Source: an uncultured delta proteobacterium
GTDB lineage: Bacteria > Myxococcota_A > Polyangia > Polyangiales > Polyangiaceae
NCBI GenBank assembly: GCA_903892415.1
Contig: CAITIQ010000574.1
Coordinates: 51,472 to 115,471 of the forward strand
Direction of reading: 5' to 3'
Length of the DNA: 64,000 nt
Every line of letters starts with the position of its first letter. The first letter of the stretch is position 1. Under the pieces are notes generated by a model. The model searched no databases and had not been told where the DNA came from. It saw only the letters and a list, made by a program, of their open reading frames with translations. The translations under genes and the position numbers were made by a program. Below, one piece after another: positions 813 through 56,603 of the stretch.

Positions 813-3680
813 ATGACATCTGGACGCGCTCTCATCATCGTTGAGTCCCCGGCAAAGGCTAAAACCATCGCTGGTTTTCTCGGCAAGGACTACGTCGTCG
901 AGTCGTCCATAGGCCATATTCGGGACTTGCCGCGCAATGCCAGCGACATCCCGGCGGCGCATAAGAAGGCGAGCTGGGCGCGACTTGGCGTGGACGTCGA
1001 CAACGGGTTCAAGCCCTACTACGTCATTTCCCCCGACAAAAAGCTTCATATTCAGAAGCTCAAGGACCTGCTGGCCAAAGCAGATCAGCTCTATCTCGCA
1101 ACCGACGAGGATCGCGAAGGAGAGAGCATCGCCTGGCATTTGTTAGAGGTTCTCAAACCCAAAGTACCAGTTAAGCGAATGGTCTTTCACGAGATCACCA
1201 AGCCGGCGATCAAGAAGGCCATAGATAACCCGCGGGACGTCGATCGCCGCTTAGTGGATGCGCAGGAAGCCCGGCGTATTCTCGACCGACTTTACGGGTA
1301 TGAGGTTTCGGCGGTCCTATGGAAGAAGGTGATGCCGAAGCTCTCGGCTGGCCGCGTGCAGAGCGTCGCCACGCGCATCATCGTTGACCGCGAAAAGCAG
1401 CGAATGAAGTTTGTTCGGGCTTCCTACTGGGACCTCGACGCCAAACTGAAAGCAGCCGACGGGGAGTTCACCGCTGCGGTGATCTCCAAGGACGGGCAGC
1501 GAATAGCAACTAGCAAGGACTTTGATGACCGCGGCCAACTGACACGGCCAGGCGCCTTGCTGATGGACGAAAAGGCGGCTCGCGCTCTCGCTGAAGACTT
1601 GGACCTAGCGGCGCTCTCGGTGCTCGGGGTCGAGCGCAAGCCCAATAAGCGCAGCCCGGCCCCGCCGTTCATGACCAGCTCGCTGCAGCAGGAGGCCAGT
1701 CGCAAACTGCGAATGAGCGCCAAGCAAGCGATGACCTGCGCCCAGAAACTCTACGAGGCCGGCTACATCACCTACATGCGTACCGATTCGACGCAGCTCT
1801 CTGCATCGGCGCTCTCCAGTGCGCGTTCGCATATCAAGGAGATGTACGGCGCGGAGTACCTGCCGGCCGAGCCACGAATCTACGCCAAGAAGGTCAAAAA
1901 CGCTCAGGAGGCCCACGAGGCCATTCGTCCGGCCGGAGATAGCTTCCGCCACCCGGAGGAGGTCGCCAGAGAGGTTGGGTCGGCCGAGGCCAAGCTCTAC
2001 GAGCTCGTTTGGATGCGAACCATCGCCTCCCAAATGAAGGACTCCATCGGTGAGAGCGTGACCGCGCGGATCGGCGGCAAAACCAAATCGGGCGTTGCCG
2101 TTGAACTCACTGCCAGCGGTCACTCCATTGTATTTCCCGGTTTCCTTCGTGCCTACGTCGAAGGAAGTGATGATCCTTCGGCGGAGCTCGAGGGCCGCGA
2201 GAAGCACCTGCCGAGACTTGCGGAAGGCGAGAAATTGCCGGTCATTGAGGTGTTGCCGAAGGGCCATGAGACGCAGCCACCAGCGCGTTTCACCGAAGCC
2301 AGCTTGGTGCAGAAGCTTGAGGAGCTTGGGGTCGGGCGCCCGTCGACGTACGCCAGCATCATCTCCACCATCATGGAGCGCGAGTATGTTTGGAAGAAGG
2401 GTTCAGCCCTGATTCCCCACTTCAAAGCGTTTGCCGTGATTCAGCTGCTGGAAACGCACTTTGACACTCTGGTTGATTACACCTTCACCGCCCGCATGGA
2501 GGATGAGCTCGATGAAATTGCCCAAGGGCATGAAGAATCGGCTCCATGGCTCGCGCGTTTTTACTTTGGTGATGCCGCGAGCGCACCCAAAGCTCCAAAG
2601 CCTGGAGAAAAGGCCGTCGAGCGAAGCGCCATTCAACTGATGGGGCTGAAGAGCGCAGTCGAAGATCGACTTGAGTCGATTGATGCGCGCGCTATCAACT
2701 CAATCCCTCTCGGTACAGATGTAGACGGTCAGGACATCGTCATTCGAGTTGGCAAGTTTGGACCTTATCTCACTCGCGGAGAGGGTAAGGCCAGCATCCC
2801 GGATGACCTGCCGCCCGACGAGTTGACGGTTGAGAAGGCTCACGAGCTGCTCGAAGCACCGAGCGGAGGGCGGCTCGTGGGAACAGACCCTTCGACTGGG
2901 CTGCCAATCTTCGTTAAGGGAGGTCGCTTTGGTACCTTCTTTCAACTTGGTGAAGTCGCCAAGGACGCGCCCAAAGACGCTGAGAAGCCGAAGACTGCAT
3001 CGCTATTGCCGACCATGGACGCGGCGAGTGTCACCGTTGAAGACGCGTTGCGAATGCTGTCACTGCCGCGAATCGTAGGTACCGATCCGCAGTCCGGTGA
3101 CGAGGTTTCGGCCCAGATTGGGCGATACGGCGCCTACATCAAGCGCGGTAAGGACAGCCGCAGCTTGGCCCGTCAGGAAGACGTTTTCCACATAACCCTC
3201 AGTGGTGCATTGGAGCTCTTGGCACAGCCCAAGACCCGCGGTGCGCAACGTGCGCCTCAGCCTCCACTGAAGGAATTCCCCGAAGACGCTGTTTCCAAGC
3301 AGCCAATCAAGGTCCTGCAGGGCCGCTTTGGGCTCTACGTTACCGACGGTGAGACCAATGCCTCACTACGGAGTGATGACTCCCTGGAGGCCCTCACCCA
3401 CGAGCGTGCGCAAGAGCTGCTTCAGCTACGCAGGGATCGCGGAGACACACCCAGGCCAGGCAAGGGCCGGCGCGGGGCTAAGGCTCCAGCCAAGCGGACC
3501 AAGGTCGCTGCTGCACCGAAGTCGAAGGCCAAGCTCAAGGTCGCCCCCGACCCGCAGGCCGCAGACAAGGCCTCGCCGAAAAAATCTGCAGCCAAGAAGA
3601 CTCCGACGAAGGCTGTTTCCAAGGTCGCAAAGCCGGCCAAGTCGGCTACCTCCGGCGCCAAGCCCACGGCGAAAAAGTAG
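813..3680 (+). CDS. topA: DNA topoisomerase I (type IA) with Lys/Ala-rich C-terminal tail
   Basis: ALIIVESPAKAKTIAGFLG, DEDREGESIAWHL, SAGRVQSVATRIIVDRE, GYITYMRTDSTQLS, GVGRPSTYASII; repeated TopA C-terminal modules (GRFGTFFQLGE, GRYGAYIKRG, GRFGLYVTDG). Start at internal Met 813 preferred to 756. Confidence 0.97.
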   Translation: MTSGRALIIVESPAKAKTIAGFLGKDYVVESSIGHIRDLPRNASDIPAAHKKASWARLGVDVDNGFKPYYVISPDKKLHIQKLKDLLAKADQLYLATDEDREGESIAWHLLEVLKPKVPVKRMVFHEITKPAIKKAIDNPRDVDRRLVDAQEARRILDRLYGYEVSAVLWKKVMPKLSAGRVQSVATRIIVDREKQRMKFVRASYWDLDAKLKAADGEFTAAVISKDGQRIATSKDFDDRGQLTRPGALLMDEKAARALAEDLDLAALSVLGVERKPNKRSPAPPFMTSSLQQEASRKLRMSAKQAMTCAQKLYEAGYITYMRTDSTQLSASALSSARSHIKEMYGAEYLPAEPRIYAKKVKNAQEAHEAIRPAGDSFRHPEEVAREVGSAEAKLYELVWMRTIASQMKDSIGESVTARIGGKTKSGVAVELTASGHSIVFPGFLRAYVEGSDDPSAELEGREKHLPRLAEGEKLPVIEVLPKGHETQPPARFTEASLVQKLEELGVGRPSTYASIISTIMEREYVWKKGSALIPHFKAFAVIQLLETHFDTLVDYTFTARMEDELDEIAQGHEESAPWLARFYFGDAASAPKAPKPGEKAVERSAIQLMGLKSAVEDRLESIDARAINSIPLGTDVDGQDIVIRVGKFGPYLTRGEGKASIPDDLPPDELTVEKAHELLEAPSGGRLVGTDPSTGLPIFVKGGRFGTFFQLGEVAKDAPKDAEKPKTASLLPTMDAASVTVEDALRMLSLPRIVGTDPQSGDEVSAQIGRYGAYIKRGKDSRSLARQEDVFHITLSGALELLAQPKTRGAQRAPQPPLKEFPEDAVSKQPIKVLQGRFGLYVTDGETNASLRSDDSLEALTHERAQELLQLRRDRGDTPRPGKGRRGAKAPAKRTKVAAAPKSKAKLKVAPDPQAADKASPKKSAAKKTPTKAVSKVAKPAKSATSGAKPTAKK

Positions 3681-4885: not shown

Positions 4886-4953
4886 GAGGACTCGTGCCAA
4901 ACGCCAAAGGGGCTAGGCCTTCAGCCATCCTGCTGAGGAGGGCACGAGTAGTG
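4886..4953. repeat. Dispersed palindromic repeat, copy A
   Basis: Inverted arms ACTCGTGCC (4890-4898) and GGCACGAGT (4941-4949), shared with copies near 35.8, 40.3 and 63.5 kb. Confidence 0.65.
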
Positions 4954-30175: not shown

Positions 30176-30331
30176 GACGGCAGGCTGACCTCGATTGCCG
30201 CGGAGCTCAAGCGCGTTGATCCCACGGAAGGCCGAGGTTCTACTCGCTTTGCCGTGGGCTCGCTGGTAGGGTCCGCGCGCTCTTGACTTTTCAAGGGCTC
30301 TGACGTGCGGCTAACGCACGAGAGGACTTGG

Positions 30332-32608
30332 ATGCTTGATCTCTCTCTTGTCGAGAAGCTCGGACAGAGCCTATTCGACGCACTATCACAAAAAGGGTTT
30401 GAAACCCTAACGCCCGTTCAACAGGCGATTCTCGCGAGTGAACACGCTGGACGGGATCTGCGTATCAGCTCGAAGACGGGCTCCGGTAAGACGGTGGCCA
30501 TGGGGCTGCTCGTGCGCGACTTGCTCGAGGGCTGCGAGGCTGGCCCCCGCGTACTCGTGATTACGCCCACGCGCGAGCTCGCAAAGCAGGTTGAAGAGGA
30601 GCTGGCTTGGCTGTTCGCCCCAATGAAGGCCGGTGTGGCTTCGGTTACTGGTGGCTCGGGCGGCATGGGTTACCGGCAAGAGCGCCGCGCGCTGTCGCTC
30701 AAGCCTGCGATCGTGGTGGGAACGCCTGGTCGTATCCTGGATCACTTGGATCGCGGCGTTTTGATCGGGGAAAATCTCGCGGCGGTCATGCTGGATGAAG
30801 CGGATCGCATGCTCGATCTCGGGTTTCGCGATGACATCGAAGCCATCCTCAAGAAGGCCCCCACGACGCGCCGAACCCACTTGGTGTCGGCGACATTTCC
30901 TCCGGAAGTCCGTGCCCTCGCCGACTCGATTCAAACCAACCCCGTTCGTATCGAGGGAACTCCACTCGGCAGCGCCAATGAAGACATTGACCACTTGGTC
31001 CACCTGATCGTCCCCGAGCAGCGGCTATCGGCCATCATCAACCTGTTGCTGACCACGCCCTCGGATCCGGTGCTGATCTTCGCCAAGACCCGCACCGACG
31101 TCTCTCAACTTACTGCGGATTTGCGCGATGCGGGCTTCATGATTGGCAAGCTCTCCGGGGAGATGGACCAGACGGATCGCAACCGAGCTCTGGCCGCCTT
31201 CCGCCGTGGGCAGCTGGACGCGATGGTCGCCACCGACGTTGCCGCACGCGGCATTGACGTGCAGGGCATTGCTCGAGTCATCCACACCGAGCCGCCGATG
31301 GACCCCGATGCCTATATTCATCGCTCCGGGCGCACTGGCCGCGCTGGGAACAAGGGTCTCAGTTCGATGCTCGTCTCCCAAGGCAACCTGATGAAGGCAG
31401 AGCGCCTACTGGCACGAGCGAGGGTCAACTTTCGCTTCGAACCGATCCCCACCGCTGCGGACATTCGCACGCGACGAGACGAACGCTTCCTCGCGCTCTT
31501 GACGGCGGATACTCCGGTCGACCCGCAAGCAGGGGAGATCAGCTCGCCCGCGCAGAAGGCGCATCTGCGAACGCTGGCCGAACGCATCCTGAAGCTCGAC
31601 AATGCGCTGCAAGCGGTAACCAATCTGCTCGAGAAGGCACGCGCGAGCGGTCCGACCGAGCCCAAGGAGATCACTGCGATCACGCCGCCAGAAAAGCGAG
31701 CTGGTCGTGGACCCGAGGGCCGTGAGCGACGTCCTCGCGAAGACCGAGCCCCTCGTGACAATAATCAATCCTTCGATCTGTTCCGGATTGCATGGGGGCA
31801 AGAGCACGGTGCGGACGCTCGTCGCTTGGTGGCGATGGTTTGCCGCCGCGGCAATATCGAGAGTCGCTCGATCGGCGCCATCCGTGTTCAACGCACCTTT
31901 TCCACGGTTGAAATCGAGACGTCAGCCGCGCCTGCCTTCGAGGAGCGAGCAGCGATGCCCGACCCCCGCGATCCGCGTGTGACCATTCGTCGCTTCACGG
32001 CGAAACGCCCTGAAGAAGACCGGCCCAAGAGCGACGGAACTACCGCGGAAGCACCTCGCTTGGACGCCCCAGCGCCCGGACGCGACGTCGAACGCGATGG
32101 TCCCCCGCGCGGGGAGGGCTTTCGGCCAAACCCCAAGCCCGGCTTCCCGCGGCGAGAGTTTCCAGGTCGACCGCCGTTCAGGGCCGAGGGACAAGGTCGA
32201 CCGGACTTCGCGAGGGGCAGCGATCAACCTCGCTCGTTCCGCTCCGATGCACCGCCGCGGCAAGAAGGCGGCGGCAGACCGTTCCGCTCGGATGCGCCGC
32301 CGCGTCGCGAAGACGGCGGCAGGCCGTTCCGTTCGGATGCGCCGCCGCGGCAAGAAGGCGGCAGCAGGCCGTTCCGCTCAGACGCACCCCCGAACCGCGA
32401 TTCTTTTGGTGGTGGCTCCAAGTTCGGTGGTGGTCCCAAGCGCACCTTCGGGCCGAAGCCGTTTCGCGATGAGACCCGAGCAGGGCTGCGCCCCGAGCGG
32501 CCTGCTTCCCCGGAAGGCCGGGAAAAACCGGCCGAGTCGCGGGAAAAGCCGCGACCCAAGAAGGCAGCGGACGCACCGGCTCGCAAGTTCAAGGGCAAGC
32601 CGCGCTGA
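30332..32608 (+). CDS. DEAD-box RNA helicase with repetitive Arg/Gly-rich tail
   Basis: ISSKTGSGKTVAMGLL, PTRELAKQ, VGTPGRILDHL, DEADRML, SATFP, RGIDVQGIARVIH, HRSGRTGRAG; DbpA-like region FDLFRIAWGQEHGADARRLVAMVCRRGNIESRSIGAIRVQRTFSTVEI. Confidence 0.95.
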   Translation: MLDLSLVEKLGQSLFDALSQKGFETLTPVQQAILASEHAGRDLRISSKTGSGKTVAMGLLVRDLLEGCEAGPRVLVITPTRELAKQVEEELAWLFAPMKAGVASVTGGSGGMGYRQERRALSLKPAIVVGTPGRILDHLDRGVLIGENLAAVMLDEADRMLDLGFRDDIEAILKKAPTTRRTHLVSATFPPEVRALADSIQTNPVRIEGTPLGSANEDIDHLVHLIVPEQRLSAIINLLLTTPSDPVLIFAKTRTDVSQLTADLRDAGFMIGKLSGEMDQTDRNRALAAFRRGQLDAMVATDVAARGIDVQGIARVIHTEPPMDPDAYIHRSGRTGRAGNKGLSSMLVSQGNLMKAERLLARARVNFRFEPIPTAADIRTRRDERFLALLTADTPVDPQAGEISSPAQKAHLRTLAERILKLDNALQAVTNLLEKARASGPTEPKEITAITPPEKRAGRGPEGRERRPREDRAPRDNNQSFDLFRIAWGQEHGADARRLVAMVCRRGNIESRSIGAIRVQRTFSTVEIETSAAPAFEERAAMPDPRDPRVTIRRFTAKRPEEDRPKSDGTTAEAPRLDAPAPGRDVERDGPPRGEGFRPNPKPGFPRREFPGRPPFRAEGQGRPDFARGSDQPRSFRSDAPPRQEGGGRPFRSDAPPRREDGGRPFRSDAPPRQEGGSRPFRSDAPPNRDSFGGGSKFGGGPKRTFGPKPFRDETRAGLRPERPASPEGREKPAESREKPRPKKAADAPARKFKGKPR
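32237..32398 (+). repeat. In-frame ~45-bp tandem repeat (FRSDAPPRxExGGxRP) in the helicase tail
   Basis: Units begin at 32237, 32282, 32327 and 32372 (last partial). Confidence 0.85.
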
Positions 32609-32644
32609 GTAGGCCGCACTGACTAGTGCCTCCACCTTCGGTGG

Positions 32645-32679
32645 AACGCCGCAAGCCTCCTCACGAAGCTTGCGGCGTT
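32645..32679. terminator. Bidirectional-type terminator between convergent genes
   Basis: 12-bp perfect inverted repeat AACGCCGCAAGC / GCTTGCGGCGTT, followed by T on the + strand, between the helicase and rhomboid genes. Confidence 0.7.
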
Positions 32680-35790: not shown

Positions 35791-35960
35791 ACTTGGCACG
35801 AGTCGTTCCGCCGAAGGCGGATGCAGCAAACAAAATGACTCGAGCCTTACTTGGCACGAGTGGTTCCGCCGAAGGCGGATGCAGCAACAAGAATGACTTG
35901 TGCCCTCTTCAACAAGAACGGCCGAAGGCCCCTTGCTCCTTCAAAGTGGCGCAAGTCATT
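35791..35960. repeat. Dispersed palindromic repeat, copy B (partial unit plus full unit)
   Basis: TTGGCACGAGTCGTTCCGCCGAAGGCGGATGCAGCAAACAAAATGACTCGAGCC then a second unit through AACGGCCGAAGGCCCCTTG...GGCGCAAGTCATT. Confidence 0.75.
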
Positions 35961-40244: not shown

Positions 40245-40293
40245 TTCGACCGAGCTGCTCGTAGCGAGCCTCAATCGACAGAGCTTCGACATT

Positions 40294-40390
40294 TCCACCA
40301 AAGGTGGATGAGTGAACAGAATGACTCGGGCCCTCTTCAAAAAGAACGGCCGAAGGCCCGTTTGTCCTTCGACTTGGCACGAGTCATTTT
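40294..40390. repeat. Dispersed palindromic repeat, copy C
   Basis: CCACCAAAGGTGGATGAGTGAACAGAATGACTCGGGCCCTCTTCAAAAAGAACGGCCGAAGGCCCGTTTGTCCTTCGACTTGGCACGAGTCATT. Confidence 0.75.
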
Positions 40391-56285: not shown

Positions 56286-56336
56286 ACGGCGGTTCGGACT
56301 TACAGCCTCGCGAGCGACCGTGCTAAGGGATGCGCA

Positions 56337-56543
56337 CCGTGGTTCGCGACCTTCGGGTCGCGCGTTGGGCAGCTAACCCAACGCCGGGAAGCCAGTGAAA
56401 CTCTGGCACGGAGCCGCCGCTGTAACTCGCAAGGAAGTCTCGCAAGGACTTCCATGTTGGACCACCACCACAAACCTCTCGGGGTTTGGAAGGTGCCAGG
56501 TCTCCCGCAAAGGAGGTCGAGAAGTCAGAACATCGGACCACGG
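56337..56543 (+). promoter_or_regulatory. Cobalamin (B12) riboswitch
   Basis: Conserved core CCGGGAAGCCAGTGAAACTCTGGCACGGAGCCGCCGCTGTAA (B12-box-like) and 3' element GAAGTCAGAACATCGG; closing stem CCGTGGT (56337-56343) / ACCACGG (56537-56543) pairs perfectly. Confidence 0.93.
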
Positions 56544-56603
56544 CGCTCAGGGCGATCACTCGTCAGGAGCAAAGAACGACGGGCGCGAGCATCGCCCGGA
56601 GGG

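Follow-up and report, generated by a model that had tools for sequence, protein, structure and literature searches.

A new family of directional palindromic repeats, probably mobile and non-autonomous, in the genome of an uncultured myxobacterium

Introduction

Palindromic elements that spread within protein genes are best known from Rickettsia. Among other short repeats, the mini-elements derived from IS200/IS605 carry hairpins near their ends and are inserted 3′ of a short fixed target with no target duplication, end-to-start junctions also being possible, and the BOX elements of Streptococcus pneumoniae are modular, with an optional inner module. The Rickettsia palindromic elements (RPE), of about 100–150 bp, are found in intergenic DNA as well as in frame inside conserved protein genes, with uncertain target duplication and no known transposase (PMC2229807, PMC10969869). 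REP sequences consist of a 20–40 nt palindrome with a GTAG or CGTC tag at one end, and the CGTC families also occur without a dedicated transposase (PMC3733652). Bacterial MITEs such as Correia/NEMIS, RUP and ERIC are characterized by terminal inverted repeats with TA ends and by target duplications (PMC2229807).

A further repeat family is described here from the 10.85-Mb genome of an uncultured myxobacterium, in which it was recognized in a window of 64 kb (the whole stretch of DNA that was analysed). This host is Polyangiaceae-like, and for the topoisomerase encoded in the window a Polyangiaceae MAG is the best named relative, with 68% identity. The repeat, which was compared with RPE by description only, is like them in size, in being palindromic, in occupying both intergenic and in-frame genic sites (including 33 residues in the conserved gene of a CBS-domain protein), in its uncertain target duplication and in having no known transposase. 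Unlike RPE, it resides in a host of a different phylum and composition, most of its copies are intergenic, the hairpin at its 5′ end is separate and directional, its RTT↓Y target (the arrow marking the point of insertion) is clear, and its arrays run head-to-tail. With the IS200/IS605 mini-elements it shares hairpins near both ends, insertion 3′ of a short target that leaves at most a TT duplicated, and possible end-to-start junctions; however, this target comprises about four bases of which only TT is fixed, and the assembly contains no Y1 transposase (PF01797), so that no autonomous relative with the same ends was found. As in BOX elements, an optional module is present in some copies, here an additional stretch of about 70 nt that separates the hairpin from the palindrome and is clearest in L222 and L224, but sequence, ends and host differ, and the myxobacterial arrays repeat the whole unit rather than an inner module. 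Many dispersed palindromes, some of them inside genes, are also typical of the GTAG and CGTC REP superfamilies (PMC3733652), from which the repeat differs in being untagged, three to four times longer and arranged head-to-tail instead of head-to-head, with no RAYT found. Like Correia/NEMIS, RUP and ERIC, it is shorter than 200 bp, non-coding, multicopy and folded (PMC2229807), although its two outer ends are unlike and TA is replaced by TT. Taken together, the location of the repeat recalls RPE, while its ends and target recall elements of the IS200/IS605 type, and it cannot be assigned to either; we regard it as a new family of palindromic repeats that are mobile but non-autonomous.

Size and anatomy of the family

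The first-pass annotation of the window had noted a dispersed palindromic repeat with at least four loci and proposed a genome-wide covariance search with a count of copies. The family proved to be real and larger than was stated: far from further copies being scarce in the genome, at least 147 matches (a lower bound, 150 candidates having been scored) were obtained with a covariance model based on 19 copies, and they occupy 112 places, 86 with a single copy and 26 with clusters of 2–6 units. Within the window, the arm AATGACTCGTGCC was matched 12 times with up to 2 mismatches, against 1.77 matches expected, a number reached in 0 of 100 shuffles. Genome-wide, with up to 1 mismatch, the same arm gave 313 matches and the reversed control 5, and for the 5′ hairpin TTCCRCCGAAGGYGGATG the numbers were 162 against 0. 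Such copies break assemblies, several contigs ending within them.

The consensus of 114 intact copies, ATTCCACCGAAGGTGGATGCAGCAAACAGAATGACTCGTGCCCTCTTCGAGAAAAACGGCCGAAGGCCCCGTTGGACCTTCGACTTGGCACGAGTCATT, is about 99 nt long, and unit lengths cluster at 97–100 nt. Each unit has two parts and a direction: a small 5′ hairpin (TTCCRCC-GAA-GGYGG, with the stem CCRCC/GGYGG), which starts at the left edge, is followed by a spacer of 11–13 nt, of several types, and then by a 70-nt imperfect palindrome, which extends to the right edge and ends in GAGTCATT. The palindrome is composed of a 13-nt arm, a core of about 44 nt carrying a GGCC-GAA-GGCC mini-hairpin, and a second 13-nt arm ending in CATT. As single-stranded DNA, three sample sequences, two of which are both strands of one copy, folded well below shuffles (z −3.5 to −5.0). 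Additionally, four of the six reading frames of the consensus are open, and the 114 copies have on average 2.9 open frames of six, against 1.65 in shuffles.

Table 1. Units and remnants of the repeat in the 64-kb window
Feature	Position	Strand	Covariance-model match
Weak diverged remnant, palindrome only	4886..4953	-	26 bits, E 0.005, model positions 34-95
Remnant: 5′ hairpin TTCCACCGAAGGTGGA directly joined to degraded 3′ arm (GGCACTAGTCAGT), core deleted	32618..32647	-	
Residual 3′ arm (GGCACGAGTCGTT) of truncated upstream unit	35795..35807	+	
Internally deleted unit: 5′ hairpin, arm, 6-nt core remainder, 3′ arm	about 35805..35865	+	39.3 bits (35805-35861)
Full unit, G-C type 5′ hairpin (CCGCC-GAA-GGCGG)	35863..35960	+	108 bits
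Full unit, A-T type 5′ hairpin (CCACC-AAA-GGTGG), short spacer variant	40292..40388	+	104 bits
Full unit, G-C type 5′ hairpin	63519..63617	-	119.7 bits

The loci of the window are listed in Table 1. The stretch 35791-35960, which had been read as one copy, is actually a head-to-tail array in which a residual arm is followed by a unit lacking most of its core and then by a full unit. The locus at 4886-4953 could be retained as a related remnant of the palindrome, but it is without a recognisable flanking hairpin, and the remnant at 32618-32647 is an extra locus beyond the four originally given. The copy at 63519..63617, which belongs to the seed of the covariance model, has the top score in the genome. 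Other repeated or structured features of the window are three 45-nt coding repeats (32235-32400) in the C-terminal region of a DEAD-box helicase gene (30305-32608), a cobalamin riboswitch at 56324-56555 (RF00174, 61.7 bits), and a 43-nt repeat in three tandem copies at 63670-63798 (GGTACCCC...CCTACCTTTGTGACGCG), directly after which a short motif is repeated around GTGACACAAACCG / CGGTGACACGAACCGG (63870-64000).

Pairing in the 5′ hairpin

It had been proposed that the flanking stem is compensated, CCGCC/GGCGG being exchanged for CCACC/GGTGG, and this was confirmed across 121 copies. In these, the third stem pair is A-T (64 copies), G-C (54), G-T (2) or T-T (1), and the second is C-G (107), A-T (12) or A-G (2); the three main stem types are each found with all spacer types. 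The long arms show almost no compensation and little variation, with an unpaired G/A at arm position 10 in 38 of 120 copies. These counts support the maintenance of pairing in the 5′ hairpin, and to this extent the suggestion that paired changes imply selection on structure stands, since pairing is kept in nearly all copies. However, independent compensation is unproven, because the copies share ancestry and the tree of such short sequences has little resolution, with 33 and 11 minimum changes and only 2 well-supported independent pairs each. It is possible that exchange of the hairpin as a block, or copy errors that correct palindromes, could give the same stem pattern.

Borders, target and arrays

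The left edge lies directly 3′ of TT, in an (A/G)TT↓(C/T) target, and the right edge carries an ATT of its own, so that isolated copies start after TT and end in ATT. TT was found before the stem in 126 of 130 copies. Outside this count of 130, insertion sites were chosen by a motif search expecting a TTC start. The base before TT is A in 47, G in 21, T in 10 and C in 2 isolated copies and A in 36 of the 38 array-internal ones, and the base following the right ATT is C or T in 78 of 91 cases. Apart from the shared NTT, the flanks showed no target duplication of 3 nt or longer. The presence of TT at both edges fits a 2-bp TT duplication as well as a target plus the element's own ATT; varied bases before TT in isolated copies and A in arrays are what would be expected if the left TT came from the target and the right ATT from the element.

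Array units stand head-to-tail with one ATT common to neighbouring units, and in the clusters nearly all units lie on the same strand, at steps of 94–98 nt. The two outer ends, TTCCRCC... and ...GAGTCATT, do not form an inverted repeat, and the 13-nt inverted arms begin about 29 nt inside the left edge.

Insertion sites and gene context

At the level of sequence, copies can be shown to have been inserted into pre-existing sites. The gene for a CBS-domain protein (L169, at contig and position C563:12559) encodes a 33-residue insert that is absent from homologues at the same alignment position, in an alignment of seven homologue rows of which two, in the wrong frame, were not counted. The RNA-ligase gene L149 (C452:9050) is split by a 103-nt copy, which shifts the frame, at the place where a solved homologue reads R-V-Q; the left-edge GTT encodes V, and therefore the old site would have been CGA-GTT-CAG or close to it. 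At C9:15804, a copy disrupts a gene belonging to a multicopy ATPase-like family, and a paralogue about 97% identical to that gene (C334:8327-8657) is unoccupied; the junction is imperfect, the GCTT of the paralogue corresponding to ATTC, so that the exact cut is ambiguous. Another copy, at C512:9333, is in frame within a 533-residue reading frame, no homologue spanning the site.

The ATPase-like family itself has at least 10 members of 72–97% identity, several of them truncated or at contig ends, on contigs C9, C334 (two), C482, C248, C92, C661, C95, C81, C174, C606 and C393 (L200-L211), and two repeat insertions lie within or adjoining its pieces. At C599:43799 (L260), a copy is bordered on one side by sequence about 92% identical to C440 and on the other by 36 nt belonging to this family; with flanks that match two unrelated sequences, it looks like a recombination joint, as does C334:5219, where the flank changes inside the element. 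Apart from a few loci, the flanks of copies were unrelated to each other in a blastn comparison of all loci. On contig C408 (L139), a two-unit array (2001-2193 and 2200-2287) lies 7 nt past the 3′ end of a predicted SRP RNA gene (bacterial small SRP RNA, RF00169, minus strand), and a group II intron domain (3523-3597; RF00029, 47 bits) lies 1.3 kb from an array, which raises the thought that the genome may hold an active reverse transcriptase.

Copies occur between genes, at their ends and within them. The earlier statement that all are intergenic holds within the window; genome-wide, however, predicted genes, as delimited by a simple codon-bias gene caller, are overlapped in 21 of the 112 places. 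Since the flanks have a coding fraction of 83%, most surviving copies thus lie between genes, mainly in short gaps near gene ends (median 42.5 nt). No preference in orientation relative to the flanking genes was observed, 22 copies being sense and 26 antisense between tandem gene pairs (p 0.67), and convergent gaps were not enriched (8/70). Ten opposite-strand genes end at a TGA in the right edge of the element.

Distribution and age

No match to the repeat was found in 38 relatives, two of them of the same genus, nor, under stricter filters, in 290 members of the class. The exact arm pair is absent from the 84,980 genomes of GTDB r220 and from IMG/VR, and plasmids and phages yielded no similar DNA, although these collections may lack records close to the window. 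The 5′ hairpin had no match in the same-genus genomes and single two-mismatch matches in three other genomes, which is the control level. In the open-access literature, no description of this repeat in myxobacteria was found. Because the genomes placed in the same genus have only about 65–74% DNA identity, over short matched stretches, the family may be restricted to a narrow, poorly sampled lineage. A search with joined flanks for empty sites added no clean new site.

Dispersed intact copies have a mean mutual identity of 78%, with a median of 91% between nearest neighbours, and the identical or near-identical copies are mostly array neighbours (98–100%). The mean of 78% indicates that the dispersed family was not freshly amplified, and it can be inferred that the arrays changed more recently than the dispersed family.

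Proposed origin and movement of the repeats

The repeat is probably a non-autonomous mobile DNA element, RPE/MITE-like in kind, moved in trans by a putative enzyme that recognises its folded ends. The first-pass annotation had offered a REP/MITE-like element among its readings, and this is borne out as far as dispersion, mobility, copy number and folded ends are concerned, but not as to a Y1/RAYT gene, a tag or a classical MITE signature, none of which was found. Elements of the IS630 type make a 2-bp target duplication with TA, and the TT at both edges would likewise fit a 2-bp duplication made by a MITE in the narrow sense, that is, a DDE insertion sequence shortened by deletion and bounded by short terminal inverted repeats, as would the size; such an origin is nevertheless unlikely, given outer ends that are not mutual inverted repeats, arms set well inside the left edge and no parent element with these ends among the orphan ends examined. 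Short, palindromic, dispersed, directional and clustered units without long target duplication would be expected if a REP-associated tyrosine transposase (RAYT), an enzyme of the IS200/IS605 superfamily, had mobilised the units as a REP/BIME family. Linkage to such a transposase, which had been suggested as a check, was not borne out: PF01797 gave 0 matches in the genome, where 5 of 14 control genomes were positive, although in an assembly 92.8% complete a Y1 gene could have been missed. Moreover, the unit measures about 99 nt instead of 20–40, the consensus edges bear no GTAG or CGTC tag, and the arrays are head-to-tail only, whereas head-head and tail-tail dimers dominate REP families (PMC3733652), so that membership in the REP/RAYT group is unsupported and we consider it quite unlikely.

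A structured RNA or a transcription terminator or attenuator useful to the host and kept by selection, as had also been suggested, would account for pairing kept in the 5′ hairpin despite three main stem types, for the location of most copies near gene ends and for two terminator-like sites within one copy. This reading is very unlikely: terminator-like sites, 7 against 5.1 in shuffles, are at background level, sense copies are not in excess and convergent gaps are not enriched, both same-genus genomes are without the repeat, and copies lie inside genes and break them. Nor did Rfam match the repeat, yielding only tRNA and the cobalamin riboswitch in the window and, at E 0.1 for four loci, only the SRP RNA and the group II intron, neither at the repeat. 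Passive spread through recombination and duplication of DNA already holding copies is in keeping with the near-identical array neighbours and with the two copies at joints between unrelated sequences, but the largely unrelated flanks, the precise edges with their target rule and the precise insertion into conserved genes make it highly improbable as the sole process.

For the preferred reading, a mobile element moved in trans, a putative transposase encoded elsewhere, and perhaps lost, would recognise the folded ends, its left cut following NTT and its right cut following the ATT that belongs to the element. To judge from the shape of the ends only, cutting would probably take place on single-stranded DNA, as with HUH enzymes of the IS200/IS605 kind. 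The ATT end of a resident copy would be the target for the next copy, and because a resident copy ends in ATT, itself a target, directional arrays with one shared ATT would result, to which tandem duplication would then add near-identical neighbours. The survival of insertions in frame and at gene ends is made possible by the four open frames, out of six, of the consensus and by the opposite-strand TGA that the right edge provides. No recurrent neighbouring gene or transposase emerged from the blastn comparison of all loci or from 120 neighbour proteins (the 25 commonest of 172 Pfam families), and no autonomous parent was found among the orphan hairpins and arms examined, which are truncated, internally deleted or decayed copies; all copies come from one assembly, 92.8% complete, of one strain. 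A more specific proposal, which is tentative, is that a directional two-hairpin cassette is brought into RTT↓Y sites by an enzyme family new to mini-elements, for which the ATT end of each resident copy serves as the next target, with one-way growth of arrays and the cassette doubling as an in-frame protein insert.

Significance

The repeat is apparently a separate case of gene-invading palindromes, in a large myxobacterial genome. Since its insertion sites are readable, its target rule is clear and its arrays are directional, the mechanism of movement becomes testable. In a genome rich in repeats, it also gives rise to in-frame protein inserts of about 32 residues, provides genes with new stop codons at their ends and may serve as a joint for recombination.
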